DNA from: a virus
Reading direction: 5' to 3' (one strand)
Length of the DNA stretch: 59,931 bases
IMG/VR virus record: IMGVR_UViG_3300042294_003065
Coordinates: 1-59,931 of that record
This document shows, piece by piece, positions 26,056-41,428 of the stretch. Made by a program: the position numbers and the translations under genes. The notes beneath the pieces are model-generated. The model was not told the origin of the DNA, searched no databases, and worked only from the letters and a program-made list of their open reading frames with translations. The stretch's first letter is position 1, and each line of letters opens with the position of its first letter.

Positions 26056-27066
26056 TTAGCTGACGTTCTTGAGAAGTTGGCAGGCGTCGGTCAAGAGGAT
26101 CTTGTTGGTGCGGTTGCTGCGGACGCGGAGCTTGCTGCCGCGGCGAGCTTCGTCGCGGTACGACTCCGATGTGAAGAGGCCGCCGGGGCTGTCGGCGCTC
26201 CAAACGATCGTGCGACCCAGGCCGCCGTTCATGAAGTCGCCAGCGCCGGTCTTGACGAGCGCGGCGTAGGTGTTTCCCCAAACCGAGGCCAGGGACACAT
26301 CCTTGCCCTTCAGAGCGACGTTCACGCTCTTCTCGGCCACCAGCACCCGCTTGAGGCGGAAGGCGGCGGCGACGTTGCTCTCGACGATTGCCGATCCGCC
26401 GGCATTGGTGTTGAGCGTGCCATAGATGTAGGTCGAGAGGTAGGTGTTGCGCCTCCAGAGATTCCAGTTGGTCAGCGAAAGAACAAGGGTGTCCGGTCGT
26501 TCGCCGCGCAGTGTCATCGCCTCGATGGCCGTGTTGACCTGCGCCGGGATGTTTGAGGCGGTGGCTGCTGTCTCGGGAGTGGTGGACCAACCGGTGGCGG
26601 TGGCCGCGGTGATGTTGCCGCTGAACGTCGTTGCGTTCATCAGGGCTGCCGCGCACTCCATCTCGTAGTCGAGCATGAGGGCGTTGGCGAGCAGCTTGCC
26701 TGTCACCATCTCCGCATCGAAGAAGTTCGCCATGCGAGTGGCAACCACATCGTCCACGCGCTCTTCGAGGCCGTATTCCTCGGTGAAGTACGAGCCCCAG
26801 GTGAACTTGCGGTCGAGTTCGTTGTAGGTGCCGGTTTCGTTGCGCTTGGTGACGCTGTTGAACACCGTGCTGCTGGTAGGGGATCGCCCGGCGTTGAGCA
26901 GCTCCGCTTCCTTCTTCGGGAAGATCGGGTAGCGGCCCGTCTCGGTGTCGGACGGATAGATCGGGAAGATCTCCTGCCCGATGTAACCGGCCTCCTGGCC
27001 AACCGCTTCCATGAGGAGCGTGCTGATCTCGGGCCGGGGCGTTGAGTCTGCTGTATTGTAGGGCAT
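26056..27066 (-). CDS. Major capsid protein
   Basis: 336 aa. Begins MPYNTADSTPRPEISTLLME and continues with GQEIFPIYPSDTETGRYPIF, a WGSYFTEEYGLEERVDDVVA segment, and a C-terminal half with LVLSLTNWNLWRR and VSLASVWGNTYAAL. This order matches the HK97-fold capsid proteins of the lambda gpE type (N-arm, E-loop, P-domain with long helix, A-domain). Flanked by the decoration-like gene upstream and a strong terminator downstream, as expected for the most abundant virion protein. No cleavable N-terminal scaffold domain is present; the scaffold is in the adjacent gene. Confidence 0.8.
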   Translation of the reverse strand: MPYNTADSTPRPEISTLLMEAVGQEAGYIGQEIFPIYPSDTETGRYPIFPKKEAELLNAGRSPTSSTVFNSVTKRNETGTYNELDRKFTWGSYFTEEYGLEERVDDVVATRMANFFDAEMVTGKLLANALMLDYEMECAAALMNATTFSGNITAATATGWSTTPETAATASNIPAQVNTAIEAMTLRGERPDTLVLSLTNWNLWRRNTYLSTYIYGTLNTNAGGSAIVESNVAAAFRLKRVLVAEKSVNVALKGKDVSLASVWGNTYAALVKTGAGDFMNGGLGRTIVWSADSPGGLFTSESYRDEARRGSKLRVRSNRTNKILLTDACQLLKNVS

Positions 27067-27100
27067 GGCTTTTTAGTGGGTGAGTGGTGTCCTGTTGTGG

Positions 27101-27736
27101 TTAGAGGAAGAGAGCGCGGATTTGTGCGTCAGTGCTGGTGCCGGGAGCGGCGTCGAAGGCGAGGACGATGCGGCCACTGGCGTCGCCGACGTTCTGGATG
27201 ACCGCCCCGGTGTTGTTGGTCGTCCATGTGACCAGGGCTGATCCCTTGGTGGCCGAAAGCGTGAAGGTGTCCGCGGACGGGACTGTGGAGACCACGTAGA
27301 GCGCTCCGGCGGTAAGTCCTGCCGTAGTGCCCGTGAAGGATACCATCCGGATGCGATCGCCGACATTCAGGCCGTGAGCGACCAGGGTGAAGACGCCCGT
27401 GGCCGCAACACCAGAGGTCACGGCGATGGTGGACTTGCGGACGTAGCGGCCAGATGCAGCCGCCTCCAGCTCGTCGCCCGTGGCGATGTCGGTCGTGTTG
27501 GTTCCGATGGTGATCTCATGGATGCCGTTGCCGCCCCAGAGCTTCACCGCTGCCGAGCGGCCAATCACCGTGTCGCCGACGTTGGCCGCGGCACTGTTGC
27601 CACGGATCATCGTGCCGATCGCGAGGTCCTGCGTGCCAGCCAGGGCAATGCCGGTGCTGGTGAGTTTTACCGCCACATGGCTGTGGGCGGAGAGGTCGGC
27701 GCTGACCGGAATTGAGATGATAGGATTGTCGTTCAT
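27101..27736 (-). CDS. Capsid decoration protein, DUF2190-like
   Basis: 211 aa. The first about 95 residues (DLSAHSHVAVKLTSTGIALA...GDELEAAASGRYVR) and last about 35 (VGDASGRIVLAFDAAPG) look like one small beta-tulip domain of the decoration type. An Ig-like beta insertion (VTSGVAATGVFTLVAHGLNV...) lies between. Such proteins bind capsid lattice points and stabilise the shell. The position directly before the capsid gene fits. Confidence 0.7.
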   Translation of the reverse strand: MNDNPIISIPVSADLSAHSHVAVKLTSTGIALAGTQDLAIGTMIRGNSAAANVGDTVIGRSAAVKLWGGNGIHEITIGTNTTDIATGDELEAAASGRYVRKSTIAVTSGVAATGVFTLVAHGLNVGDRIRMVSFTGTTAGLTAGALYVVSTVPSADTFTLSATKGSALVTWTTNNTGAVIQNVGDASGRIVLAFDAAPGTSTDAQIRALFL

Positions 27737-27763
27737 GGTTCGAGGATTTGGAGAGTTGGTCGC

Positions 27764-28579
27764 TTAGGCGTGGATGGTCCGGGACTGCACCCAATCGGCG
27801 TGCAGGGCGGGGCCGTTGGGCTCCTTCATGGCGAATAGGATGGCCTGGCCGGGAGTGCATTTCTTCTCGGCTTCGATGGCCTTCAGGCGGGCCTGGAAGG
27901 GGTGGAGTTCGCCGCTGTTCGCGTGGAAGAGGCGGATGCCGTTGTCCACGCCGGCCTTGACCGGGCGGGTGCCCGTGCGGACGTGGAGTTCGAGGGCCTC
28001 GATCTGGGCCACGGCCCGTGCGGAGAACTCCTGGAGTTCCCGGTTCTGGTTGGCCAGGGCGATGAATTTCGCCTCAACCTTGCCGGCCTCCTGCGCTTCC
28101 GCAAAATTGATTTCGGCCTGCTCCTTGGCGTTGAACTTCGCTTTGAGCTGGATCAGCTCCCGCTGGAGAGCGGCGAACTGTGCGCTGCCTGCGCCCGCTG
28201 CGGCACCTGCGCCGGACATCTCAGCGCCAGCGGACTGGCCCTGCTCGCCCTGGTATCCGCCCTGCTCGCCGCCGTATTGCTCGCCGCCCTGCTCCTGGCC
28301 CTGCTGTTCGCCACCGAGGTTCGCGTTGTATTCGCCGACTGCGGCATCTACTTCATCGCGGGTGATCCCGTTGGCCGCCAGCTCCTCGTCGCTCATTGCG
28401 TTGAGCTGCGAGAGCTGGTCGAAGAGTTCGTTGTCACCGGGCTCTTCCTGCTGACCCTGCGACTGGAAAGCCTCGGCCACTTCGGCTTTGAAGGCGTCGT
28501 GTTCAGCGCGCATGGAGCGCACCTCGTTGAGGATGTCTTGGAGCGAGGGCTCGGCGTTTTGATTGTTGGGATCGGCCAT
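27764..28579 (-). other. Possible internal scaffold start (lambda Nu3-like)
   Basis: ATG at 28577-28579 lies in frame in the protease gene exactly where sequence changes from protease to scaffold. It is preceded by the A/C-rich GCAAACCACTTACTTTT, like the leaders of other genes here. It would give a 271-residue scaffold. Confidence 0.4.
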
Positions 28580-29188
28580 AAAAGTAAGTGGTTTGCGAGT
28601 TACGGAAAAGTTCCGAGTGTCAACCGAATTGGATTTCGCCAGCGCGATGATCTGCCGCTTTAGGTCGGCGGAAGTGGGTCCTTCTTTCGAGGAGAACAGC
28701 CCGCCCTTGTTGGCCGCGGCACGCTTCACCACGTCGCAGCTCATCACCTGCTCAGCCCGCGCGCACTGCCTGCCGTTGACCGTCGTGCCCTTGGGATCAC
28801 CCTTGAAGCTGAAGCTGAGTCCGAAGGTCTTGGGTTGCTTGCGCGCACGCTCCAGCATGGTCGGCGTTTCCTTGTGGGTCTCCAGCAGCACCCAGTCCGC
28901 GCGCAGCTTGTTGCCATCCACCCGGAAGTTCTGGAGCCATCCATTCACGTCCTCGACCTTCCCCTCGTGATTGATCGTCACTGGCACCTGCCCCATGGAC
29001 TTCGAGAGGTCGTGGAGCTGGGTCAGGGTGGTCTTGTCCACGAACAAGGAGTGCCCTTCGGCCTCGCACTCGCTGGTGATGCAGCTCACTCCACGGATGG
29101 TGAAGTTCTGCTCATCGACGACGCCGGTATCCCCGGCGAAGAGTTCGGGGCTGTTGCTGCGAAAACGAATAGTGGCGAGCTGGGACAT
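27764..29188 (-). CDS. Head maturation protease fused to scaffold
   Basis: 474 aa. The N-terminal domain (about 1-200) has INHEGKVEDVNGWLQNFRVD, LRADWVLLET and PKTFGLSFSFKG, giving a His at 74 and Ser at 125/127 in the pattern of phage prohead serine proteases. From residue 204 (MADPNNQNAEPSLQDILNEV) the chain becomes helical, with a QG/GE-rich linker and coiled coil (QFAALQRELIQLKAKFNAKE), typical of scaffold. The C-terminus is basic/aromatic and could bind capsid. An in-frame ATG at 28579 could start a separate scaffold as in lambda C/Nu3. Likely substrates are itself and packaged proteins next door. Confidence 0.7.
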   Translation of the reverse strand: MSQLATIRFRSNSPELFAGDTGVVDEQNFTIRGVSCITSECEAEGHSLFVDKTTLTQLHDLSKSMGQVPVTINHEGKVEDVNGWLQNFRVDGNKLRADWVLLETHKETPTMLERARKQPKTFGLSFSFKGDPKGTTVNGRQCARAEQVMSCDVVKRAAANKGGLFSSKEGPTSADLKRQIIALAKSNSVDTRNFSVTRKPLTFMADPNNQNAEPSLQDILNEVRSMRAEHDAFKAEVAEAFQSQGQQEEPGDNELFDQLSQLNAMSDEELAANGITRDEVDAAVGEYNANLGGEQQGQEQGGEQYGGEQGGYQGEQGQSAGAEMSGAGAAAGAGSAQFAALQRELIQLKAKFNAKEQAEINFAEAQEAGKVEAKFIALANQNRELQEFSARAVAQIEALELHVRTGTRPVKAGVDNGIRLFHANSGELHPFQARLKAIEAEKKCTPGQAILFAMKEPNGPALHADWVQSRTIHA

Positions 29189-29216
29189 AATGCCCTAGCC
29201 CGCCATGTCAATCCGA

Positions 29217-29230
29217 CTGCAAACTTGCAG
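29217..29230. repeat. Dispersed palindrome, copy 6 (one mismatch)
   Basis: CTGCAAACTTGCAG on the plus strand, two bases after the stop of the 790-residue gene and between it and the protease gene. Confidence 0.8.
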
Positions 29231-29232
29231 CT

Positions 29233-31605
29233 CTACCGCTTCAGCTTCGCCATGAGTTTCTTCACCGCGCTCTGCTCCTCTTCCGGCTCGGCCTGCTGCT
29301 GCGGCTGGGTCTGCATCGGCTTTTGGTAAGCCACTGCAATCGAGTTCGGATCAATCATGTTCCCGTTGGCGTCGGTGAACTGGCCCTGCTGGTCGCGGGG
29401 GCGGGGGTCGGTGCCGAAGAGGATGGTGTTCAGTTCATCGGCTGCGCTGAGCTGCTGTGGCTTGATGTATCCGCGCGCAATCAGTTCGCGGGCATATTGC
29501 CGCAGGCGCTCTTTCTTCTCGCCTTCTTTCTTTCCCATGTGGTGCCCGGCCACCCCGGCTACGATTGGGCCGCCAATAACGCCGGCTCCAAGTAAGGCTG
29601 CTCCGGGTCCGGTCAGCTTGCCAACATCGCGAGCGCCAATGTATCCGAAGAGGATGGTATCAAGCTGTTCACGGGCGCTCATATTGAAAAGCGCCCGGCT
29701 CTTCCTGGCCTTCTCGAAGAAGTCCTCCAGCTTCATCCCCTTCTTGGCCGCCAGGGTGCTCTTGGTGGTCATGTCGTTCACCAGCTTGAGTGGTCCCATC
29801 CGGCCGGCTGGTTTCAGGGTGAGGGCCTTGTAGGTGTTGATGTCCTGGCGGAGGCCGAGCTGGATGAGGTCGAGTTCGTCCGCGGCGGACATCCGCACCT
29901 TGCCCTTGGCGAGGAGGTGGGGCTGCTTCTCCTCATACTTGGACCGGATGATATTGTGGTCGGCGCGAGATCTGTCGATGAGATACCCGATTGGCAGGCC
30001 GATTGGGCCGCCGAGGACCGTTCCGATGTAGCGACCGGAGGCCCGATTGAAGTGCGCTCCGATGCCCTTCTCTTTTCTCACGCCCTCCTCGGTGTTGATG
30101 TAGCCGCCGGCCAGCTCGATCAGCTCTTCGCGGGCGGACATCTCAAACCTGTCGTCCTTCTTCTTCGCCATGGAATACAGCGCGCCAGCTCCGGCGAGTG
30201 CAGCTCCGACGCCGGCCCCGATCCTCACCTTGCGAGAGCTTGCGATCTGCGCGGCCTTGTCCCTGGCCCTGCCGTAGGCCCCCTTGGTGAAATCCTTGGT
30301 CGCCTTCACGGCCTTCCTGCGCACCGCTCCGTAGCCTCCGCGCGCCATGATCTCCTGATGGGTCAGGTAGGCCCCGCCAACGCCTGCGACAGCGCCGGCC
30401 GAGGTGGCTGCGGAGCTGAGGAAGTCGCTGGTGTAGCCAAGTTCGATGATGGAATGGAGTTCATCTCTGGCGGACATGAGCCTGAGTCGGTTGGGGATGC
30501 CTTGGGCTTGCTTGATTCCCTCGGGAAGGTGATCGACGACCTCGACGCGGCCCTTGGTGGCCCTGGCCATGGTCTCGTTCACAAAATCCTTGGTTGAATT
30601 AGCCGCTCTACGCGATGCCGCTCCGGCCCTGCGTGCGCCACGAAGCATTGATCCGCCCTTAAACAAGATGCCGAGCCCGGCGGCTCCAGCGGCCATGGCT
30701 GGGGCAGCGCCAAGCGCTTGGGCGCTGTGTTTCCTGCCTTGCTCCTCCAGTGCGTTGATCCTGTCCCCGAGGGCGTATCGAGCTGCCGTGGTCCCGATGG
30801 CCCCGACGCCAGCGCCGATGGCTGCCGCCCTCTTGCTGCCGCCTAGAAGCAGCCCGGACATGGCTCCGCCGGCTGCCCCATACATTGGAGACGCCATGTA
30901 GCTTTGGACCCGCCGGACTCCAGCTAGTCCGTCTTGGTCGAACTGGATGATCTCCTGAAGCTCGTCCCTTGCGGAAAGCTCACGCGGCCTCAGAGCGCGG
31001 CGGATGTTGTTCCCTGCGGCCCCGGCATAGCTCCCGAAGCTGCCTGCTGCCGCCCGGAGTCCGCCGGGTTGGGTGAGGGTTCCGCGAAGTGTGGCGTGGC
31101 CCTCAAGACCGAGCTGCGGAAGATGTCCGAGAACGGTTCCTGCGACCCGCTTTCCGGTCCCGACGTTCGATCCTGCGAGCTTTGCGGCTGCTGCGCTGGC
31201 CGCATTGGCTCCAGCGAATACCGCGGTCGCGGAATGCTCCACTGCCTCCTCTGGCAGACCTGCGCGCTTGGCGAGGTCTTTGATCATCCTTGCCTGTGCG
31301 GCATGAGTGCCCTCGTGGGCTGCCACCGCTGCGCGCGGGGAGGTCTGGATGGTGTCGGTGGATGGGTTGTAGTGGCTGCCGGGATTTTGGGCTTTCTGCA
31401 CTCCCGACATCGGCCCAGCTTCAACGCGCCCAACATGGGTGACGGTCGTTCGTCCGGCCATGGTTGGATCACCCGCGGCCCTCGCGGCGATGGCCTTGGC
31501 TTTTCCGACGCTGATCCGCTCGCCGCCGGTCAGGGCCATCTCAAGTTTGGCCTTGAGTTTGCCGATCTTCCCGAGTCCCTTGTTGATCTGTGAGTGCGAA
31601 AACAT
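29233..31605 (-). CDS. Motif-repeat membrane-active virion protein with HExxH
   Basis: 790 aa. Residues 97-104 read HEGTHAAQ, an HExxHxxQ zinc-peptidase signature like DUF4157, in a helix AAVAAHEGTHAAQARMI. After residue 209 the protein is a chain of modules, each begun by a variant of [ML]SAxxEL-x-x-I: residues 210, 377, 489, 572, 642 and 719. Glycine-rich membrane segments lie between, for example IGAGVGAALAGAGALYSMAK near 462-481, followed by basic patches. The end has PRPRDQQGQF and an acidic/basic tail. It lies in the block between portal and protease and shares its motif with the next three proteins. Probably packaged in the head and ejected with DNA; enzymatic activity unproved. Confidence 0.75.
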   Translation of the reverse strand: MFSHSQINKGLGKIGKLKAKLEMALTGGERISVGKAKAIAARAAGDPTMAGRTTVTHVGRVEAGPMSGVQKAQNPGSHYNPSTDTIQTSPRAAVAAHEGTHAAQARMIKDLAKRAGLPEEAVEHSATAVFAGANAASAAAAKLAGSNVGTGKRVAGTVLGHLPQLGLEGHATLRGTLTQPGGLRAAAGSFGSYAGAAGNNIRRALRPRELSARDELQEIIQFDQDGLAGVRRVQSYMASPMYGAAGGAMSGLLLGGSKRAAAIGAGVGAIGTTAARYALGDRINALEEQGRKHSAQALGAAPAMAAGAAGLGILFKGGSMLRGARRAGAASRRAANSTKDFVNETMARATKGRVEVVDHLPEGIKQAQGIPNRLRLMSARDELHSIIELGYTSDFLSSAATSAGAVAGVGGAYLTHQEIMARGGYGAVRRKAVKATKDFTKGAYGRARDKAAQIASSRKVRIGAGVGAALAGAGALYSMAKKKDDRFEMSAREELIELAGGYINTEEGVRKEKGIGAHFNRASGRYIGTVLGGPIGLPIGYLIDRSRADHNIIRSKYEEKQPHLLAKGKVRMSAADELDLIQLGLRQDINTYKALTLKPAGRMGPLKLVNDMTTKSTLAAKKGMKLEDFFEKARKSRALFNMSAREQLDTILFGYIGARDVGKLTGPGAALLGAGVIGGPIVAGVAGHHMGKKEGEKKERLRQYARELIARGYIKPQQLSAADELNTILFGTDPRPRDQQGQFTDANGNMIDPNSIAVAYQKPMQTQPQQQAEPEEEQSAVKKLMAKLKR

Positions 31606-31650
31606 TTTTGAAGAAGGTTGGGTCTGCTTTACTACTTCTGTGTCATCCTG

Positions 31651-32427
31651 TCAGTATGCTCCTGCTGTTTGGGGCATGGAAGGTATCACGCGCCCTCGGA
31701 TGGTTTTGATGGGCTGGTAGCGGCTGACCGCGGGACGCAATGTGGAGCCGGCGTCGCGGGCGATATTGAGTGATGGAGACACCAGTAGGTCTTGCAGGTG
31801 GCGGCCGACACCTTCCTGAGCGCCGTGCTCCGCCCCTTTCCTCATCTGTGCCGTCATTGCCCTCTTGCCGATGGCGCTGTTGCCGATCAGGGTTCGGGCT
31901 GCATTCACAACCGGAAGGACCGGATCGACCAAGGCTGCGCCGGCTCCACCGACTGCTCCTCCGGCGATGCGTGCGCCCGCGGATTGGCCCGTCGATCGCG
32001 GCAGCCAGGAGATGAGTCTGTCGGCGAACTTGGATCGCTTCCCGGTGGCGATCTCGCTCAGGCCGGCTCCCAGCTTTCCGGTTACGCCCTCTTTGGCGAG
32101 CGCCAGGGACTTGCGGGCGATGCGGTTGCTCTTGAGTCCGGCGTCGTATAGGTGGCCAAGTTCAGGCCCGGCCATGACATCCACAGCCCCGCGAATCGCC
32201 GGGTGGATCGCTTTGCCTGTTTTGGCGTGGCGAACTCCGGACTGGAAGACGCTCGATCCTACTCGTTGCTGCCACCCGCCTGGAGTCAGCATTTTCCTGA
32301 AGAGATGATTCGATCCGATGTGCGCAGCGGCTCCGGCCAGCATCCCTGTGATGAGGCTGAACTGGATGGTATCGTCTTTCTCCCGAAAGCGATCGAGGAT
32401 CTCCTGAAGCTCGTCGCGTGCTCCCAT
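31651..32427 (-). CDS. Motif-bearing membrane-active virion protein
   Basis: 258 aa. The very N-terminus, MGARDELQEILDRF, is a copy of the motif that recurs inside its neighbours. Then come a hydrophobic stretch (FSLITGMLAGAAAHIG), a basic middle and a Gly/Ala membrane-like segment (AGARIAGGAVGGAGAALVDP). Ends in a basic Pro-rich tail. Its N-terminal motif suggests that internal copies elsewhere were once protein starts. Same operon, four bases from the next gene. Confidence 0.7.
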   Translation of the reverse strand: MGARDELQEILDRFREKDDTIQFSLITGMLAGAAAHIGSNHLFRKMLTPGGWQQRVGSSVFQSGVRHAKTGKAIHPAIRGAVDVMAGPELGHLYDAGLKSNRIARKSLALAKEGVTGKLGAGLSEIATGKRSKFADRLISWLPRSTGQSAGARIAGGAVGGAGAALVDPVLPVVNAARTLIGNSAIGKRAMTAQMRKGAEHGAQEGVGRHLQDLLVSPSLNIARDAGSTLRPAVSRYQPIKTIRGRVIPSMPQTAGAY

Positions 32428-32430
32428 GGC

Positions 32431-32901
32431 TCAGAGGTTGATCAGCGCGTCGAGGCGGGCGTTGAGCTGCACGAGCTGGGAGTGGCGGGCGGAGAGGCCG
32501 ACCATTTTCGACCTGCCCTTGGTGACGGATCGCGCCGCGCCCCGGAGGCCGCGGAGGATGGACGCCAGCCTGCCCTCGCCTGCGTAGGCTGCCCGGTCAG
32601 CGCCCTTGGTGAAGGCTTGCCCGACGCCGCTGTTGGTGATGGTATCCTTCACGGTGCCGGCGTATCCCGCTGCGCGGCCGTAACCCTTGCTGATGGTATC
32701 CGCCACACCCATCGTGCCTCCTCGCACTGGTCCGGAGACTCCGCGACCAGCCGCGTAGAGCCCGCCTGCTGTGCCGGCTCCCAGTACGCCAGCCCCGATG
32801 GCCGTGTTACGCAGTCCGTGGCTTTCCTCCTCGTCATACGGATGCTGGAAGTTGATCTGGTCGATCTTGGCGTTCAGGGCGATGAGGCGGTGTAGTTTCA
32901 T
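32431..32901 (-). CDS. Small motif-bearing membrane-active protein
   Basis: 156 aa. The motif occurs at both ends: LIALNAKIDQINFQHP at the N-terminus and LSARHSQLVQLNARLDALINL (residues 136-156) at the C-terminus. One Gly-zipper membrane segment lies at about 51-71 (NTAIGAGVLGAGTAGGLYAAG), with a basic, Gly-rich rest. It resembles a single module of the larger proteins and may show the ancestral unit. Confidence 0.7.
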   Translation of the reverse strand: MKLHRLIALNAKIDQINFQHPYDEEESHGLRNTAIGAGVLGAGTAGGLYAAGRGVSGPVRGGTMGVADTISKGYGRAAGYAGTVKDTITNSGVGQAFTKGADRAAYAGEGRLASILRGLRGAARSVTKGRSKMVGLSARHSQLVQLNARLDALINL

Positions 32902-32915
32902 TGGCGAGGTTGGTT

Positions 32916-35900
32916 CTATGAATTGAGGATGGTGTCAAGGCGGGCGGAGAGACTGGTGCCGGCTTTCTTGCCCAGTCCGGCAAATGCCTCCGGGGCGAAC
33001 TTGCGGCCGATGTAGGCGGTGCCGATGACTGCTGCTCCCAGCTTGGCGGCGTTGATCATCCCCTTGTTCTCCTCCCGCTCATACCAGCGCTTGGGGCGGC
33101 GGTTGCGCTTGATCACGCCGGGGCGGTTGCGGACCCAGTGCTCCCATTGGTCGGGATACTGGGTGTTCTCGTCGAGCTGGATGAGCTTCGCGCCGGAGGA
33201 TAGCAGGCGGTCCGTGAGCTTCTTGGCCTCCTCGGCGATCTCGGCCTCCCGCTCCGTGCGACCGAGCTGACCGGGAGTGGCGGAGCGGACAGTCTTGAGG
33301 GCCTCCGGTGACATCCCGGCGGCGGCCTCATTGAGGGCTTCCTGCTTCTGCTGCGAGGTCATGTGCGGGAAGGGCGTGACCTTGGATGTCTCGGCTGCCT
33401 TGGTGGCTGCCCCGACGTTCTTCGAGTCCACCCATTTGTTCACTTTCCCAACGATCCCACCAGCGACTCCGGATGCCTCGTTGCCGGCGTTCTGTGCGGT
33501 CTTGGGAAAGAAGCTGCGCACCTTGTCGTAGGCTTCCGCCACGGGCTTGGGGACTGACTTGCGGATGGCTGACTGGACCTCCCCTTTGTTCCATCGGTTC
33601 TGGAATCCACGCATGGCAGAGTCGCCAGCGAAGCCCGCCTTGCCGCGCATGATCTTTCCTGCGGCCAGGAGGGAGCCTCCGGTGATTCCGATCGCGATCA
33701 GATTCTTCGCCCACGGCTTCTCCCACTCCCTCTTGCGCGGGCGTCCACGGGTGTCCACGGCCTTCTCTCCGCGCAGGGTGCCGCCGATGTCCTTCAGGAC
33801 TCCGGTGCCCCGGCGGTAGGCTTGCTGAATGTCCTGTCCGCGGCGGCTGTAGTTGACCTTGATCTCCTTGCCGGTGGCGGTCTCGCCTCCGATCCAGCGG
33901 CGGCTGTCGAAGTAGTCGAAGTTGATCACGGGCTGGCGGGCGCTGAAGAGCCTGCTGGCCCCGTAGAGCCCGAGTCCGGCGATGCCGAGCCCTGCTGCCC
34001 GGCGGCCCATCTTGGAGGCGGCCAGCTTGGCGCTCACGAGCTTGTCGTAGCCGCGCTTGCCGGTGAGTCCGATGGCCCCAATGGCGGCGGCTTTCCACGG
34101 CATACCCTCAGCCTGCTTGGCTCCACGGGAGCGGTCCCCGTAGATGTCCTTGGTCCCCGCGGTGGAGGCGCGCACCCCGATGGCGGTAGCTGCTCCGGCC
34201 CCGGCCCCGATGAGCGCACGGGCCTTGGCTGGCATGGTCCCGCGAAGGGCGGCTCCGAGTCCGGCTCCGGCTACAGTCGAGCGGAGGATGTTTGCGTCCC
34301 GGCGGTCGAGGTCCTCGTCCTGGATCTTCTTGCGGTAGCGGTCGGCGGCCAGCTTTCCGGTGAGTGGGACCTCGGCGAAGCGGATGGGAATGAGGCGCGA
34401 GGACATGCGTTGATCTTCCTTTGCCTTCTTCCTTCGGTTCTCCATGTATTTTCTAAAACCATAGACGCCTCCGATGACTCCGAGGCTGGCTGCACCGACG
34501 CCGATCATTGCTTTGTGTGTGCCGCGACTGGCATTCGCATCCGCCTCGTCAATCTGCTTTCCGAGCTTCTGTCTTGCAGCGTCTCCGCGCTCCTTCATTA
34601 CGCGCAGTTCATCAAGATCGCGCTTGATTGCATCCCGCTGCTTTAGGACTGGCCTGATCTTTCTGACGACCTCCGCGACAATCTTCTGATCATGCCCGCC
34701 CCCTTGCGCGACAGCCCTTTTGAATGTGCCCGAAAGCCGGTCTCCGAGACCTCTCTCCATGGCTGTGCCCTCCGCCAAAACCTTGGCGGCGTAATTTCCC
34801 CTAGCAAAGTAAATGGCGCTGGCTCGCGAGGACATGCGTTTGGTCTTTCCTCCATGCAGGGCGTCAACCGCGCTGCCCTCGTCCACGCCCTGATAGACAC
34901 CGTAGCCCCCGCCGCCGATGGCTCCGATGGCCGCTGCGCCAGCGGGTCCGGATCGGTTGGCCCAGGTGATCGGCCGCCAGTCAGCGTGCTTCGTCATAAA
35001 GGCGCGGCCCTTGGCGGTCTTGAGAGCCAGTAGCCCGGCGGCTCCGCCGGCTACGGCTCCACCGATTCCTCCGCCGAGCGCCGCCCGCTTGGTGTAGGCG
35101 GCCCGCTCGCCGGGCTTTGGATTGCCGCTGATGGCGTTGCCGATGAGGACTGATCCGGCGGCCAGTCCGGCGAGGGTTCCGCCTACTTTGCCGGCGATCT
35201 TGAGGGTTGGGCCGACTCTTGATCCTACCTTCAGGGCGGTTGGGATTCCGGCCACAAGTGCTCCGGTGGCTCCCGCGGAAAGTCCGGCCACGATGGATGG
35301 ATGGAGATGCTTCTTCTCAGCGAAGTGAATCGAGTTGCCCTTGGCGGCGAGCTTGCGCTGATAGATGTCACTGCGCCTGGGCGCGGGTTGCTTGACGGGC
35401 CATGCTGCGGGCTTATTTCCGATCCAGAGCGGGCGGGCCTTGATGACCTTCTCCACGTTATGACCGATGGCTGCCCCGGCGAGTCCTGTGCCGGGGGTGA
35501 CGCCGCCTCCGGCTACTACTCCGGTGACGTAGCCCACCTTGGCTCCCGTGGAGAGTCCCTTGAACTTGGCGAGCAGCTTCTTCACGAGGCTGGGCTCGGC
35601 GGGGCGCGAGGTCTGGATGAAGTTGGAGAACTTGCTGGAGAACTCGGTGGCGTATTCCGGACGGCGGGAAGCGTATCCCCCTGCTCCGCCGATGGCGAGA
35701 CCGGAGCCGATGCCGATGGCGATCTTCTTGCGGGCACCTCTGCGGATACCGGCGATCTCCTCGGCTTTCTTGGCGTTGGTTTCCCCAATGAAGCTCTCGC
35801 GGGCGATGGCGTATTCGTTGCGCTGCTTCTCACGCAGGGCTTTCTCGGAGGCGCGGACGCCCGCTGTTTCCATCCTGGCCTTGGCGATCTCAACTTCAGC

Positions 35901-38900
35901 GGCGTGGCCTGCCGCTTTGTCTCCAGCTCTCTCGCTGACGATTCCGTTGTACATGCGCGCCTTCTCGCTGGCGGCTTTGCGGGTCTCCCAGTCGTGGCTG
36001 ATCTTGATGTCCGGCTTCTTCCGCTCGGCATCCCGGCGCAGGACGATGCGCTCGTGGCGCTCAAGTCCCGGATTGGAGATGCGTGGCGCGGCCTTGCGGT
36101 CTTGCTTGATGAAGCGCGCCAGTTCTCTTCGGGCGTAATCCATGGTGTCCATGACCGGCGCTCCGGATGCCTGTGCTTTCTCCCAAATCCTTTTGGCGTA
36201 CGGGTTGTTGGGGAGCTTCCAGTTCTTCGCGCTGACTCCAAAACGGATCAGGCGCAGTCGCGATGCCATGAGCCGTTTCTGCGGCTCGTCCTTTTTCTTC
36301 AGGAGCCTGTTGGCGAGGTATCCGGCTCCGAGAATGCCGGCTCCGATGCCGATTTTTTGCAGGGTTCCAGTGCCGGGGTTGGGCGGGTATTTCCGCACGC
36401 GCGGGCGCTGGCTGATACCCTCGAAGAGTTCGCCCGAGTTGATGATGCGGCGCTTGATGATCCGCTCGGCTTTCTCTCCTCCGGCGGATTGCAGGAGTCC
36501 GAGGCGGGCCTGGGTGCGGTCGAAGCGGGCGCGCAGCTTCTCGGGGTCGGTCTCCTTGGACCAGATGGCGGATGCGGTGGTGTCCTTGACGGCTGCCTTG
36601 ATCGGGTTCTCGGATGGCGTGGCGAATCCTCCCTGCGGGGCCGGCTTGTTCTTGATCGGCGCGAGGATGTTCTCGGCCTTGGCGAGCCGCTCGGCGTCAT
36701 CCAGTCCATCGGTCGGGATGTTCTTCAGAGCCCGCTTCTCCAGTGCCCCGGTGTACCATGCGGCACGCTTCTTCCAGCGGGCCTGCCTTTCCTCCACGAG
36801 CTTCGGCAGCTTGGCCATCGCCTCGTTGACGATGCGGGGCTGCACTCCGCGGTCCATGGTCCTGCCGGTCCAGTTGGTCACGGGCCTGCCGAGATACTGG
36901 CGGCCGTAGGCTTGGGTGATCTCCTTGCGGGTGGCGAGTTCCTTGGCCAGGTCCCGGCGCACGGGGGTCATCGCCTCTCGGAGCTGCTCGCTGTTGCGGG
37001 TCAGCTTGGAGCTTTCCTTTTGAAACTGATCAGAAAGCGGGTCGCTGGTCGGCGCTCCGTCGCGGCGCACCTCGATGAGCTGCTGCTTCTTGGTTTTGAT
37101 CTTTGCCCCCTTGGCCTTGAGGTCCGCGAGGTTTCCCTTGATGACCGGCTCGGAGGCTTTGCGGAAGCCCTCGGTGTCCCGCCAGTCTGCCGGGTAGTGG
37201 CCGTAGCCCTGCTTGAAGGGCGGAAGCTCCTGATGCTTCTTGGCCCTCGGGGCGGCGGCGTAGTCCTCACCTTTTTTGAATTCCCCCTTGGGGTATTTCT
37301 CCATGCCGGGAAGGAGCTGGGTGGACTCGGCTCCGCGGCGGCGCTCGGGTGCCCCGCTCACACTGGGGTCGAGGATGCGCTGGCGTCCGCCGACATCCGT
37401 GACGCGGGGCGTGATCTTCTTCTCGCCTCCCTTGAAGCTGGCGAACACCGGGTCCGCCTTGCTCTGCACGGCCTGCCGGATGGCGCGGAGGTCGGCGTTC
37501 TTTTCCCATACGGAGCCGCGCAGGAGGGCACTGGCGCGCTTCTGGCTGGCTGCGGTGCGGGCCTCGCTGGGGCGGTCGAATCGGATGGTCTTCATCTTGC
37601 TGGAAAGCAGCCGTGTGATCTGCCGCGCCACCTCATCCTTGTCGCGGGCGGAGTCATTGAGCAGATCCTCCACGCCCTTGCTGGAGCCAGGGAAGAAGCG
37701 GTTCTTCGGGCGACCCACGTAGGAGCGGACATCCACGCTGCGGTCCTCGGGGTCCAGCGAGGCGTGGCTGCCCATGCGGGCCGAGCGTCCGACGACCTGC
37801 CGGATCTTGGCGTTGTTGAAGTGGGGTTCGAGGACCTGCACCATGCGGGTGCCCTTGAGGTCGAGGCCCTCCGCTCCGGAGGAGGAGACGAGCAGCGCGC
37901 GGTGCCTACCCTCGTTGTAGTCACGGACGGTCTGGTTGCGGACCTTCATGGTCTCGTTGCCGGTGAAGACGCCGTGCGGGATCTTGGCGGCGGTCAGGCG
38001 TTGCTGGAGAGGCTCGATGCCGTGCTTCAGCCAGTTGGAATAAACCAGTGCCTTGCCCTTGGGGTTCTTGAGGTGGCCTTCGAGATCGCGGAAGGCGCGG
38101 TCGATCTTGGGCTCATCCGCGCTGGAGGGATCGAGAGCGCGGGCGCTGTTGCTCACCTGCCGCGGGCCGGTCAGGTAGGGCTTGAGCCGGTCGATGTTCT
38201 CCTGGCTGATCTTCAGGCCCTTGGGGACACCGCCGAGGCTGGCTCGGTAGAGGGCGCTCTGGTGCTTGGTCATCTCCACCGGGATGGTCTGCGATGTGAC
38301 CTTGGGCAGCATGGAGGGATCGCCCTTGTGGTAGTCCACGTATTTGTTCAGCACCTTCTTCAGCTCGCCGGAATGACTGAGGCGCTCACCCCTCCAGCGG
38401 GAGAAGAAGTTCGGACGGGTGTAGCGGTTCTCGAATGCCTTGCCCTCGCGCAGGACGGGCTTGCCGGCGGCCTGGTTGACCAGTGTGCCGATGTCGGAGG
38501 GGTTGTTGAAGATCGGGGTGCCAGTGAGCAGCATCCGCTTTTGCGCAGGGCTGCCCTTAATCGCGTCCGAGAGGGCCGACTTGGGGTTACGTGCCCGGTG
38601 GGCCTCATCGACGATCAGGAGGCGGCTTTTTAGCGCACCACGGCCCTTCAGGGAGAGGGCCTGCTGGCTCATCACGTTGGCTTCAGGGCCTCCCCAGCGG
38701 GCGGTCTCCTTCCGGTAGTTCTCACGCAGGGCGGCCGGAAGGATCACGTCGGCACTTCCGCCCATGGCCTTGTGGGCTTCGATGGCAGTTCTGGTTTTCC
38801 CCGAACCGAGGCCGTGGGCCACCACGAGACCGGACTGGCTGGGGTCCTGGATGCGGCGGATGACGCGGCGCTGGTGGGGCTGGAGTTCTTCGGCAAATTG

Positions 38901-39608
38901 GATGGGCTTCGCCGCGATCTTCTTCCTCTTCGCGATCGTGCGGCGCTTGGGACCTGCGATCGGTGATCGCTTGCCTCCTGTGTCTCCGTCCGGTTCTGCG
39001 GTGCAATACATGAACTGGATGAGGGGGGCTTTGGACGAGCAGTTCCACTTCCGTAGCGAGAGCGCCTTGCGGGTCGGCTCCCCGTTGGGCTTTTCCATCG
39101 GACCCTGCATGCCGGACATCCGGGCGCAGAAAGACTTGCGGCGCTTGGCCGGCTTGGAGTCGGGATCGAGCTTCGAGGGCGGCGTGGTCACGGCCGTCTT
39201 GAGCTTGCTGCCGGGGTTCTCTCGGCGGTAGCTGGCTACGCCCTTGCGGTTGAGTCCGCCTGATTCGCTCTTGCCTTCCTTGCGCTGCCACGCTGCGGAT
39301 GCCAGCTCGATCGGCGCTGCGGCGGACTGCATGCGCTGGACCTTCACGGTGATCTTCTGCTTGCCCTGCTTGAGGGCGGCGTTTGCGCGGTGATTGCCAT
39401 CAAGGATCGAGTATTTTCCATGCCCGCGGTGCGAGACCGTCACGGTGCCCGGCATGTTTTTTGTGAACCTTGCCAGTTTCTTGATCTTCTTCTCGCTCAC
39501 CGTGCCCTGCGTGCTCACAAGGTTCTTGAGCTTGATCTTGCGCTCGGTGCCCTTGCCGATGCGGTGCATCCCTGGCTTGAGTCCTTCGACGTAGAGTGGG
39601 TTCTTCAT
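32916..39608 (-). CDS. Giant polyvalent virion protein with ParB-like and helicase domains
   Basis: 2230 aa, the largest gene. N-terminus: a ParB/sulfiredoxin-like region with ILDGNHRANAALKQG (68-82). Residues 105-191 resemble DUF6321 (GGLNRKGVASYRRENPGS; KSFCARMSGMQGPM; LRKWNC). Residues about 238-665 form an SF2 helicase: Walker A GLGSGKT 266-272, DEAH 334-337, LTGTP 361-365, motif VI QVVGRSARMGS 604-614. From about 1080 come at least ten Gly-rich membrane segments separated by basic linkers. Motif copies of the MSSRxxxIRFA type stand at 232, 667, 1113, 1418, 1592, 1735, 1888, 2135 and 2218. Such multi-domain polyvalent proteins are thought to be packaged and delivered into the host. It overlaps the portal stop (TGATG). 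Confidence 0.8.
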   Translation of the reverse strand: MKNPLYVEGLKPGMHRIGKGTERKIKLKNLVSTQGTVSEKKIKKLARFTKNMPGTVTVSHRGHGKYSILDGNHRANAALKQGKQKITVKVQRMQSAAAPIELASAAWQRKEGKSESGGLNRKGVASYRRENPGSKLKTAVTTPPSKLDPDSKPAKRRKSFCARMSGMQGPMEKPNGEPTRKALSLRKWNCSSKAPLIQFMYCTAEPDGDTGGKRSPIAGPKRRTIAKRKKIAAKPIQFAEELQPHQRRVIRRIQDPSQSGLVVAHGLGSGKTRTAIEAHKAMGGSADVILPAALRENYRKETARWGGPEANVMSQQALSLKGRGALKSRLLIVDEAHRARNPKSALSDAIKGSPAQKRMLLTGTPIFNNPSDIGTLVNQAAGKPVLREGKAFENRYTRPNFFSRWRGERLSHSGELKKVLNKYVDYHKGDPSMLPKVTSQTIPVEMTKHQSALYRASLGGVPKGLKISQENIDRLKPYLTGPRQVSNSARALDPSSADEPKIDRAFRDLEGHLKNPKGKALVYSNWLKHGIEPLQQRLTAAKIPHGVFTGNETMKVRNQTVRDYNEGRHRALLVSSSGAEGLDLKGTRMVQVLEPHFNNAKIRQVVGRSARMGSHASLDPEDRSVDVRSYVGRPKNRFFPGSSKGVEDLLNDSARDKDEVARQITRLLSSKMKTIRFDRPSEARTAASQKRASALLRGSVWEKNADLRAIRQAVQSKADPVFASFKGGEKKITPRVTDVGGRQRILDPSVSGAPERRRGAESTQLLPGMEKYPKGEFKKGEDYAAAPRAKKHQELPPFKQGYGHYPADWRDTEGFRKASEPVIKGNLADLKAKGAKIKTKKQQLIEVRRDGAPTSDPLSDQFQKESSKLTRNSEQLREAMTPVRRDLAKELATRKEITQAYGRQYLGRPVTNWTGRTMDRGVQPRIVNEAMAKLPKLVEERQARWKKRAAWYTGALEKRALKNIPTDGLDDAERLAKAENILAPIKNKPAPQGGFATPSENPIKAAVKDTTASAIWSKETDPEKLRARFDRTQARLGLLQSAGGEKAERIIKRRIINSGELFEGISQRPRVRKYPPNPGTGTLQKIGIGAGILGAGYLANRLLKKKDEPQKRLMASRLRLIRFGVSAKNWKLPNNPYAKRIWEKAQASGAPVMDTMDYARRELARFIKQDRKAAPRISNPGLERHERIVLRRDAERKKPDIKISHDWETRKAASEKARMYNGIVSERAGDKAAGHAAEVEIAKARMETAGVRASEKALREKQRNEYAIARESFIGETNAKKAEEIAGIRRGARKKIAIGIGSGLAIGGAGGYASRRPEYATEFSSKFSNFIQTSRPAEPSLVKKLLAKFKGLSTGAKVGYVTGVVAGGGVTPGTGLAGAAIGHNVEKVIKARPLWIGNKPAAWPVKQPAPRRSDIYQRKLAAKGNSIHFAEKKHLHPSIVAGLSAGATGALVAGIPTALKVGSRVGPTLKIAGKVGGTLAGLAAGSVLIGNAISGNPKPGERAAYTKRAALGGGIGGAVAGGAAGLLALKTAKGRAFMTKHADWRPITWANRSGPAGAAAIGAIGGGGYGVYQGVDEGSAVDALHGGKTKRMSSRASAIYFARGNYAAKVLAEGTAMERGLGDRLSGTFKRAVAQGGGHDQKIVAEVVRKIRPVLKQRDAIKRDLDELRVMKERGDAARQKLGKQIDEADANASRGTHKAMIGVGAASLGVIGGVYGFRKYMENRRKKAKEDQRMSSRLIPIRFAEVPLTGKLAADRYRKKIQDEDLDRRDANILRSTVAGAGLGAALRGTMPAKARALIGAGAGAATAIGVRASTAGTKDIYGDRSRGAKQAEGMPWKAAAIGAIGLTGKRGYDKLVSAKLAASKMGRRAAGLGIAGLGLYGASRLFSARQPVINFDYFDSRRWIGGETATGKEIKVNYSRRGQDIQQAYRRGTGVLKDIGGTLRGEKAVDTRGRPRKREWEKPWAKNLIAIGITGGSLLAAGKIMRGKAGFAGDSAMRGFQNRWNKGEVQSAIRKSVPKPVAEAYDKVRSFFPKTAQNAGNEASGVAGGIVGKVNKWVDSKNVGAATKAAETSKVTPFPHMTSQQKQEALNEAAAGMSPEALKTVRSATPGQLGRTEREAEIAEEAKKLTDRLLSSGAKLIQLDENTQYPDQWEHWVRNRPGVIKRNRRPKRWYEREENKGMINAAKLGAAVIGTAYIGRKFAPEAFAGLGKKAGTSLSARLDTILNS

Positions 39609-41428
39609 CAGTTCTTCGAGGATGATCCGTTGACCTTCGGCTTACTGCCGTTGCTGCTGGTGGTCTTGGGTCCGGCGACGACGGGGGCGTGGGCTCCCTC
39701 CGGGGTCAGACCGGCGTTGCGGTTGAGTTGCTCCTCCTCGGGTTCTTCCGGAATGATCTTCTCGGCCTCCGATCGGGTGGAGCCGGGGAATCCCTTGAGG
39801 ATCATCTCGACCGCCGATTCGCGGTCGATGGTGCCGTTGCCTACCTTCTCCATGATCTCGACGATGAGCTTGAGGCCCTTGTCGCCCACGGCCTGGATGC
39901 TGAGCGGTGGAGGCGGAGGCATCGGTGTGGGCGTAAGGAAGGCGGCCTTCTCCTGTGTAATCGACCCGAAGAGGCCGCGGGCCACGGTCTCCCCTGGTAG
40001 CTGAGCTTTTGCCGCTTCTTCGATGAGCTTGTTCCCCGCAGCGAAGTTGGAGGCGACGACCTCGCCAAAGGATTTTCCAGTGTGCTTGGCGACGACCTCC
40101 TCGATTTCAAGGATGCCAGCGGCGGCGAGGCTGAGATCGGCCTGGGCCTCGTGGCCCAGGTCGGCGGTGATCGGGCGGCTCCAGTGCCATGCACACTGCT
40201 TCCAGCCGGGAGTGGGCGGCAGGACGCCGAGGGAGATGCCCTGCGCGATGACCTTCTGGCGCACGCGGTTGAGGACGAGGTTTTCGAGGAGTCCCTGCCA
40301 GCTCTCGATCTTGCGCAGATCAGCCTGGATCTCCACTCGGGTATTGGCTCCGCCGAGCACGGAGATGTCCCAGAGCAGGCCATAGCTGATGCCGAGGCTG
40401 ACGCTCATCTTCCGGATGAGGGTCTGGACGAAGGCCATGAACGCTCCACTCGGGCGAGCGCTGGGGCTCATCATGGAGAAGTTCTCACCCTCGGCCAGCT
40501 TGAGCAGCTTGCCCCATTGGGCGTCCTGCGTGGGCGTGCCCTGCGCCGTCTTGCCGTCCCATGCGCCGGGGCCGTTGCCGTTGAAGGGGTCCTTGGTGCC
40601 GATCAGGGCGGCGTACTGCGCCTGCACCTTGCCGGCGATCTTCTCCGCCTCGATCCACTCGCGGATGTCCCGGATGTCGTTGAGGCAGCGCAGCAGCTTG
40701 GTGCGTCCGCGGTATTCGCCGGGCCGGTAGGGGTCGTGCAGATGGATGAAGGAGTCCATCGGGACCTCCTGCGGTTCCACGTATGATCCGTCCTTCTTGT
40801 GGCGGAAGATGCGGGCGCTCAGGATGCGGCCGGTGTTCTCGTCGATGGTGAAGCCGCCGATGTAGTTCTCCGCCTGCGTCGCCTCGGTCGGGGAGCCGAT
40901 ACGGTCAGCCTCGATGGACTGAAGGCAGTAGCCGCCGGTCGGGCTGAACTGCGGGGCGATCTCCACGAAGCCGGCGTCGCCGTCCACCATGAAGCCGTGG
41001 TAGGCCATCTGGACCATCTCGATGAAGCGGGCGCGGCCCGAGAGATCGCACATCGTCCCGCCGTCCTCCCCTCGGTCGTCGCCACACCAGGAGTGGAGGT
41101 AGCCGTCGTATGCTGCGTCGATCTGTCCGTCCCCGGTGTTGGATTTGCAGTGAAGTTTTCCCGCGACGTACAGGGTGAGGCGCTCGATGACGCCACCCAC
41201 GAAGTCCAGCTCGACAGCCTCCCGCGCATCGGCCATCGCGGTGTAGCGGTCCCGCTGCTTGCGCCATGACTCAGCTCCGGTCTGACTGACCGGCTTGGCT
41301 CTCCCGCGCCTTTCAGGATTCGGATTGTACTCGCTGAACTCCAGCAGACGCGAGCGGAAGTCCGGGTGGATCTCGGTGATGACCCTGCCGCCGGAGTCGA
41401 GCAGACGGATGAGATTGTCTTTGGCCAT
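39608..41428 (-). CDS. Portal protein, lambda gpB type
   Basis: 606 aa. The core order LDFVGGVIERLTLYVAGKLH, GDAGFVEIAP, IGGFTIDENTGRILSARIFR, MDSFIHLHDPYRPGEYRGRT, IREWIEAEKIAGKVQAQYAA and SYGLLWDISVLGGANTRVE matches the clip, wing and stem regions of lambda-type portals paired with GpA terminases. The C-terminal about 120 residues (SIQAVGDKGLKLIVEIMEK...) are an acidic, Pro/Ser-rich extension that may bind scaffold. Shares bases with the genes on both sides (TAATG and TGATG). Confidence 0.85.
   Translation of the reverse strand: MAKDNLIRLLDSGGRVITEIHPDFRSRLLEFSEYNPNPERRGRAKPVSQTGAESWRKQRDRYTAMADAREAVELDFVGGVIERLTLYVAGKLHCKSNTGDGQIDAAYDGYLHSWCGDDRGEDGGTMCDLSGRARFIEMVQMAYHGFMVDGDAGFVEIAPQFSPTGGYCLQSIEADRIGSPTEATQAENYIGGFTIDENTGRILSARIFRHKKDGSYVEPQEVPMDSFIHLHDPYRPGEYRGRTKLLRCLNDIRDIREWIEAEKIAGKVQAQYAALIGTKDPFNGNGPGAWDGKTAQGTPTQDAQWGKLLKLAEGENFSMMSPSARPSGAFMAFVQTLIRKMSVSLGISYGLLWDISVLGGANTRVEIQADLRKIESWQGLLENLVLNRVRQKVIAQGISLGVLPPTPGWKQCAWHWSRPITADLGHEAQADLSLAAAGILEIEEVVAKHTGKSFGEVVASNFAAGNKLIEEAAKAQLPGETVARGLFGSITQEKAAFLTPTPMPPPPPLSIQAVGDKGLKLIVEIMEKVGNGTIDRESAVEMILKGFPGSTRSEAEKIIPEEPEEEQLNRNAGLTPEGAHAPVVAGPKTTSSNGSKPKVNGSSSKN

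Follow-up and report, generated by a model that had tools for sequence, protein, structure and literature searches.

A repeated, scaffold-like tag on proteins encoded between portal and protease in a group of uncultured phages, a candidate capsid-targeting signal

How phages select large head-internal proteins is a question raised by a locus in which four genes lying between those for the portal and the head protease share a recurrent peptide motif. The locus is found in an IMG/VR phage record of 59,931 bases, which was analysed in full and is referred to here as the window. Its source is an uncultured bacterial virus that is part of a group.

Gene order and domains of the block

On the minus strand the order of genes is portal, the 2230-, 156-, 258- and 790-aa proteins, protease-scaffold, a decoration-like protein and the major head protein (Table 1). 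The lambda-type head order, in which the portal gene is directly followed by the protease/scaffold gene, is not found in the window. The four intervening reading frames and their coordinates are as given in the original prediction, a reading of this DNA that had picked out the block for its shared motif. Searches with the single sequences of the 790-aa, 2230-aa and protease proteins returned no viral relatives. The portal sequence retrieved two contigs, a long relative and a short one whose portal is identical, and the remaining relatives were reached through a two-sequence portal alignment and a five-sequence protease alignment; a portal alignment was made with seven relatives. The short contig (L004, 8,085 bases), with a portal 100% identical to that of the window, also carries the start of the same 2230-aa protein and probably comes from the same virus population. 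No relatives were found in the genome collections searched. A gap between portal and protease of ~8-15 kb, filled mainly by putative cargo genes, is seen in the window, in four of the long relatives (G1, G3, G5 and G6) and in the contigs L047 and L051, and the relatives carry homologues of the 2230-aa protein, of 1415-1691 aa, in the equivalent position.

The proteins of the block had been described as membrane-active. This is only partly borne out. Gly-rich hydrophobic segments and tags follow one another in turn along the 2230- and 790-aa proteins, but soluble enzyme and DNA-related domains make up the N-terminal part of the larger one. Its ParB-like segment shows 56% identity to residues 1-103 of a 1460-aa protein in G5 and resembles the N-terminus of a ligase protein in G6 and G3, while the PDB matches of its SNF2 domain are chromatin remodellers. 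DUF6321 is also found in cyanophage proteins annotated as structural. The N-terminal domain of the 790-aa protein, which has no Pfam hit (the AF2 model of the protein has a pLDDT of 33), contains HEGTH at residues 97-101, with HEATH in G1 and HEAGH in L051, so that HExxH, the motif of a candidate zinc metallopeptidase (zincin), is conserved.

Several further features of these loci were noted. The closest cultured relatives of the SNF2 domain of the window, at 34-41% identity, are in PA-SR01 (L002) and Arash (L003), where they are likewise encoded among head genes; neither of these two phages has the tag in its helicase-bearing locus. In G4 (L022:9923-12277) the portal has a C-terminal extension of ~170 aa with a single long-form tag (MTARLDRIIQFG) along with a repeat rich in proline and valine, and several unrelated genes separate this extended portal from the cargo block. 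A GIY-YIG homing endonuclease-like gene, recognised by eye, lies between cargo block and protease in G1 (L005:20432-21346), and the 94-aa module that ends the 481-aa protein of G1 has no match in cultured phage records. Opposite the 2230-aa gene, on the plus strand (window 35301-38633), is a 1110-aa open frame, probably a by-product of GC-rich coding sequence. Shine-Dalgarno-like sequence is missing from most of the late-gene starts inspected (window 26056-41428, minus strand), which may hint at the host group.

Table 1. Coordinates of genes, domains and tags in the head locus of the window.
Feature	Position	Strand	Basis
Portal protein, lambda family, 606 aa; upstream block border	39608..41428	-	Pfam Phage_portal_2, PF05136 6e-32
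2230-aa multidomain putative cargo protein	32916..39608	-	ORF
ParB-like (DGNHR) segment, 2230-aa residues 1-102	39303..39608	-	By motif; no Pfam hit
DUF6321, 2230-aa residues 112-188	39045..39275	-	PF19846 4e-22
Tag NCSSKAPLIQFMYC, 2230-aa, directly after DUF6321	39003..39044	-	Leave-one-out model
Tag RKKIAAKPIQFAEE, 2230-aa, directly before SNF2	38886..38927	-	Leave-one-out model
SNF2-type helicase/ATPase, 2230-aa residues ~240-620	37749..38891	-	PF00176, PF00271; phrog_62
Tag LLSSKMKTIRFDRP, 2230-aa, after SNF2	37569..37610	-	Leave-one-out model
Tag LMASRLRLIRFGVS, 2230-aa	36231..36272	-	Leave-one-out model
Tag KLAAKGNSIHFAEK, 2230-aa, weaker	35313..35354	-	One model run; below leave-one-out threshold
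Tag-like RMSSRASAIYFARG, 2230-aa	34797..34838	-	By eye; below leave-one-out threshold
Tag RMSSRLIPIRFAEV, 2230-aa	34368..34409	-	Leave-one-out model
Tag LFSARQPVINFDYF, 2230-aa	33909..33950	-	Leave-one-out model
Tag LLSSGAKLIQLDEN, 2230-aa	33165..33206	-	Leave-one-out model
C-terminal tag SLSARLDTILNS-stop, 2230-aa	32919..32954	-	Leave-one-out model
156-aa Gly-rich protein, tag-like at both ends	32431..32901	-	ORF
C-terminal tag LSARHSQLVQLNARLDALINL-stop, 156-aa	32434-32496	-	Leave-one-out model
258-aa protein, begins with tag	31651..32427	-	ORF, tag scan
790-aa protein with HExxH domain followed by six modules, each led by a tag	29233..31605	-	ORF, leave-one-out tags
Tag LSARDELQEIIQFD, 790-aa	30937..30978	-	Leave-one-out model
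Tag MSARDELHSIIELG, 790-aa	30436..30477	-	Leave-one-out model
Tag MSAREELIELAGGY, 790-aa	30100..30141	-	Both model runs
Tag MSAADELDLIQLGL, 790-aa	29851..29892	-	Leave-one-out model
Tag MSAREQLDTILFGY, 790-aa	29641..29682	-	Leave-one-out model
Tag LSAADELNTILFGT, 790-aa, leads DPRPR module	29410..29451	-	Leave-one-out model
Head protease with fused, predicted coiled-coil scaffold, 474 aa	27764..29188	-	AF2 model, Foldseek
Tag-like scaffold segment RELIQLKAKFNAKEQAEINFAE, residues 343-364, in modelled helix 334-405	28097..28162	-	Long-tag matching
Major head protein, downstream head module	26056..27066	-	phrog_1005 8e-28

Forms and placement of the tag

The motif is real, but what had been described as a single pattern is a family of three overlapping forms. 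These are a long form, L-[NS]-x-[KR]-L-D-x-[LIV]-I-[EQ]-F, which is often preceded by another L-I-x-L turn, a middle form, [ML]-S-A-R-[DE]-[EQ]-L-[DN]-x-I, and a short form, [MLF]-S-[SA]-[RK]-x-x-[LP]-I-[QR]-F-[AGD]. As a helix the long form is strongly amphipathic (moment 1.32 versus 0.83 when shuffled, sd 0.07). The short form (S-S-R-x-x-x-I-x-F-A) has no measurable amphipathicity as a helix, and so may be a different element with a different role. The forms can replace each other, as seen before the DPRPR module of the 790-aa protein, which is common to the window and six relatives. In the window, G1, L047 and L051 this module comes after a tag of the middle form, whereas G3 and G6 have a long tag in that place and G4 a mixed one.

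The literal expression of the original prediction matches seven times in the block and not at all in 15,825 aa of other reading frames, with a mean of 0.004 matches in shuffled block proteins. Leave-one-contig-out models were built for the window and the five long relatives (G1, G3, G4, G5 and G6) as three position weight matrices, with seeds taken from the remaining contigs and thresholds set on shuffled proteomes. With models trained on the five relatives only, the 3,434 aa of the window block yielded 16 tags and the other 15,840 aa yielded 3. Over the six contigs together the blocks (17.1 kaa) contain 71 tags, and the remaining 108.8 kaa contain 14. Since the seed expressions had been chosen after viewing these six contigs, the cleanest test is provided by L047, L050 and L051, which lay outside the training and were unseen when the tag forms were fixed. 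The blocks of these three contigs (6,903 aa) contain 31 tags. Their other 6,074 aa contain 3, and each of these lies within residues 310-356 of the protease-scaffold protein, beyond its protease domain. The tag is thus confirmed as confined to the block, and as a larger phenomenon than was first described. One match of the leave-one-out models, MSQLATIRFRS at the N-terminus of the protease, forms the first beta strand of the model and was taken as chance. A scan of viral contigs with a DNA pattern gave no match, which is uninformative because the pattern was one codon too long for the commonest form. No tags were seen in the sequence examined of L053-L059, which are distant relatives by protease only.

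Within the window, models trained on other phages recovered all six predicted copies in the 790-aa protein (residues 210, 377, 489, 572, 642 and 719). In the 2230-aa protein those at 228, 667, 1113, 1734, 1887, 2135 and the C-terminus were recovered, the copy at 1419 passed in one model run only and that at 1592, seen by eye, fell below threshold; a further tag at residue 189 had been missed. The predicted N-terminal copy of the 258-aa protein, MGARDELQEIL, passes the threshold weakly. The 156-aa protein had been credited with a copy at each end: the C-terminal one is clear, and the N-terminal MKLHRLIALNAKIDQINF is a related long form recognised by eye only.

Altogether 109 tags stand in 45 block proteins, 88 of them internal, 13 N-terminal (3.1 expected) and 8 C-terminal (1.1 expected), and 10 of the 45 proteins have no tag above threshold. 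The 13 N-terminal copies are on unrelated proteins. The domains that flank tags are also unrelated to one another, and include ParB-like, DUF6321, SNF2 ATPase, LigD phosphoesterase with ligase, HNH, HExxH and Gly-rich segments. DUF6321 lies directly beside a tag both in the 2230-aa protein, where the tag starts at 189 immediately after the domain, and in a 97-aa protein of G5, where the tag comes first and the domain occupies 26-95; in a 962-aa protein of L047 tags at 758 and 850 bracket a domain at ~763-849. An HExxH domain followed by a tag is present in three contigs, and a ParB-like segment followed by a tag and then by LigD phosphoesterase/ligase also occurs. The tagged proteins at L042:12221-13861 (G6) and G3_63256_65217 combine a ParB-like segment with a LigD-type 3'-phosphoesterase and an ATP-dependent DNA ligase, a content that suggests DNA end repair delivered with the genome.

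The original prediction would have been refuted had homologues lacked the motif at their module borders; in the relatives the motif does stand at such borders. The module after tag RMSSRLIPIRFAEV is conserved in relatives. A 448-aa protein of G1 consists of an extra domain, a tag and then a homologue of the window 258-aa protein, and in G3 and G6 the extra domain forms the C-terminal end of the giant protein. A 1276-aa protein of G4 starts where the 1691-aa protein of G1 has an internal tag. Module ends defined by BLAST fall within 10 residues of a tag in 35 of 142 cases, compared with 12.4 ± 3.2 expected from rotated tags, an enrichment that is supportive rather than decisive because conserved tags attract alignment ends. 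In these arrangements the tag behaves as a transferable element, and genes have been split, fused, lost or swapped at or close to it.

Internal translation starts at the MSAR/MSSR sequences were considered, as the tag ATGs are richer in Shine-Dalgarno-like sequence than other internal ATGs. This reading was set aside: most of the gene starts inspected in the window are without Shine-Dalgarno-like sequence, and the Lys/Arg codons upstream of the tags are purine-rich.

Resemblance to the scaffold and alternative readings

The AF2 model of the protease-scaffold protein has a pLDDT of 57 overall and ~80 over most of the protease domain. In Foldseek the protease model comes closest to T4 gp21 (5jbl, E 1.2e-4, probability 1.00); herpesvirus proteases are among the hits that follow. 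His74 and Ser125 are invariant in five sequences. By its fold and these two residues the neighbouring protease models as a head protease of the T4 gp21/herpesvirus type. Helices at 216-245 and 334-405 around a low-complexity linker are also predicted, at low confidence. When the first half of the long tag was compared with 112,670 positions outside the blocks, the top score went to RELIQLKAKF, at residue 343 in the scaffold helix of the window; for the full long tag, compared with 109,346 such positions, it went to the scaffold of G5. Scaffolds scored 50.8 against 20.5 for shuffles (sd 6.0) with the first half and 33.0 against -4.0 (sd 7.3) with the full tag, although part of this similarity could be generic since coiled coils generally resemble amphipathic tags. 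Scaffold matches recur in G5, G6, L047, L050 and L051.

On balance we lean towards the motif being a capsid-targeting (cargo-loading) tag that docks cargo to the scaffold. This is favoured because it would explain the confinement to cargo genes, the independence of position, the C-terminal copies, the interchange of forms and the resemblance to the scaffold. Cargo encoded beside the portal and protease genes would carry one or many tags, and during procapsid assembly these would dock onto the predicted coiled-coil scaffold half of the protease-scaffold protein, at least for the long form through an amphipathic helix that imitates a segment of the scaffold. We infer that the docked cargo is incorporated in the head core and afterwards injected together with the DNA; it would bring with it SNF2 ATPase, ligase, nuclease and metalloprotease-like domains, and its Gly-rich hydrophobic parts may help in crossing the envelope. 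As the tag is short and position-independent, domains could be gained, lost or moved between cargo proteins at or near its borders.

The original prediction had coupled targeting with cleavage by the adjacent protease, and it is the targeting half that the gp21-type model and the scaffold resemblance support best. The main rival reading takes the motif as a maturation site: a cut by the head protease within or just behind I-x-F (L-I-E in the long form) would turn the long cargo proteins, perhaps after targeting, into separate mature domains. This seems unlikely. The protease type would suit such a role, tags sit between domains, and T4 gp21 cuts after L/I-x-E (PMC9026906), to which the Glu found before the F position in 17 of 29 long tags may be compared. 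An I/V-x-F-like sequence is also present in portal N-termini (F31 is invariant in eight portals) and in scaffolds, which are usual protease substrates, and the models match in the G3 and G5 portals too. Against this, the short tags mostly have Q or R before the F, the residues flanking the I-x-F core vary widely with no invariant P1 residue, and an ending in the gp21 motif L/I-x-E does not define the tag family. Moreover, eight copies lie at or within 4 residues of the C-terminus, where a cut would release almost nothing, and most of them, such as LDTILNS, LDALINL, LDNLLT, LDYLIS and LDDVL, end before or without the F.

It had also been proposed that the copies are N-termini of once-separate proteins fused in frame. 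As an evolutionary process this stands, since relatives start separate proteins exactly at copies that are internal elsewhere, and of 35 internal copies 15 have Met before S[AS], compared with a background of 2%. That the internal copies are mainly relics and now functionless is much harder to credit: Leu or Phe occupies the same position in 18 of the 20 others, which fits a hydrophobic preference, and fusion leaves unexplained the retention of the tag, the C-terminal copies and the fronting of unrelated domains, while core residues conserved in every position class suggest ongoing selection. Association of cargo with cargo, or membrane insertion of an ejected conduit, in place of packaging would suit the alternation of tags with Gly-rich hydrophobic segments and the cross-linking that several tags per chain would permit, but is improbable given that soluble, non-membrane cargo (DUF6321, ligase, SNF2) is also tagged and that it is the scaffold, and not tail or membrane proteins, to which the tags are similar.

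Relation to known packaging systems

Encapsulin cargo-loading peptides are short and terminal and load cargo into an HK97-fold shell. The tag described here differs in apparently matching the scaffold rather than a shell pocket. In T4, the capsid-targeting peptide (CTS) is carried by the internal proteins IPI-III and Alt and is trimmed by gp21, the propeptide binding core proteins until gp21 releases it (PMC9026906). The tag is likewise a short peptide, encoded next to a gp21-type protease, and can precede unrelated proteins; Alt has a C-terminal propeptide as well (PMC9026906). Unlike the T4 CTS, the tag is longer, reaches nine or ten copies per protein and frequently stands inside the chain or at its C-terminus. 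It also resembles the scaffold and has no invariant Glu at which cleavage would occur, with no sequence relation shown between tag and CTS. The ejection proteins of phiKZ and SPN3US have propeptides of 20-254 residues and a cleavage motif A-x-E, and many head-internal proteins are processed there by a gp21-related protease (PMC10052503); in contrast to those long propeptides the tag is short and repeated.

The P1 Dar proteins (DarB, DdrB and DarA) are described as large, head-packaged multidomain proteins that include a SWI2/SNF2 ATPase, with genes near the portal and protease (PMC9024508; PMC5512222). An N-terminal packaging signal of DarB is sufficient for a reporter, and no common signal was found among the Dar proteins (PMC9024508). 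The proteins of the block are similar in being multidomain, with an SNF2 ATPase and genes near portal and protease, and would also be packaged, but most of them share one tag family. They also fit the class of phage polyvalent proteins (Iyer et al, 2017), which are predicted to be packaged, are encoded with portal and head genes and are multidomain, with ParB-like, SWI2/SNF2 and metallopeptidase domains (PMC5512222). Several effectors are combined in one protein here too: ParB-like, DUF6321 and SNF2 in the window, and ParB-like, LigD phosphoesterase and ligase in G6. Relative to that account, whose consulted passages describe no recurring tag between domains (PMC5512222), the present proteins add the ligase with LigD phosphoesterase, DUF6321 and the Gly-rich hydrophobic modules. 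Within a limited search of the open-access literature, a repeated, seemingly mobile, scaffold-like tag common to most cargo appears to be new among targeting peptides.

Because one recognisable tag appears to mark most cargo, packaged proteins could be predicted from sequence alone. More tentatively, and somewhat short of probable in our view, the tag may represent a general 'add-a-domain' packaging code, in which a short helix mimicking the scaffold, at any position and in any copy number, brings arbitrary proteins to the core of the head and drives the shuffling of domains between cargo proteins. Confirmation of the tag as a mark of cargo would provide a compact, position-independent loading signal, and the mixing of domains in polyvalent proteins would be explained by exchange at tag borders. 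The ligase with LigD phosphoesterase and the SNF2 cargo suggest that the functions delivered are in DNA repair or anti-restriction.
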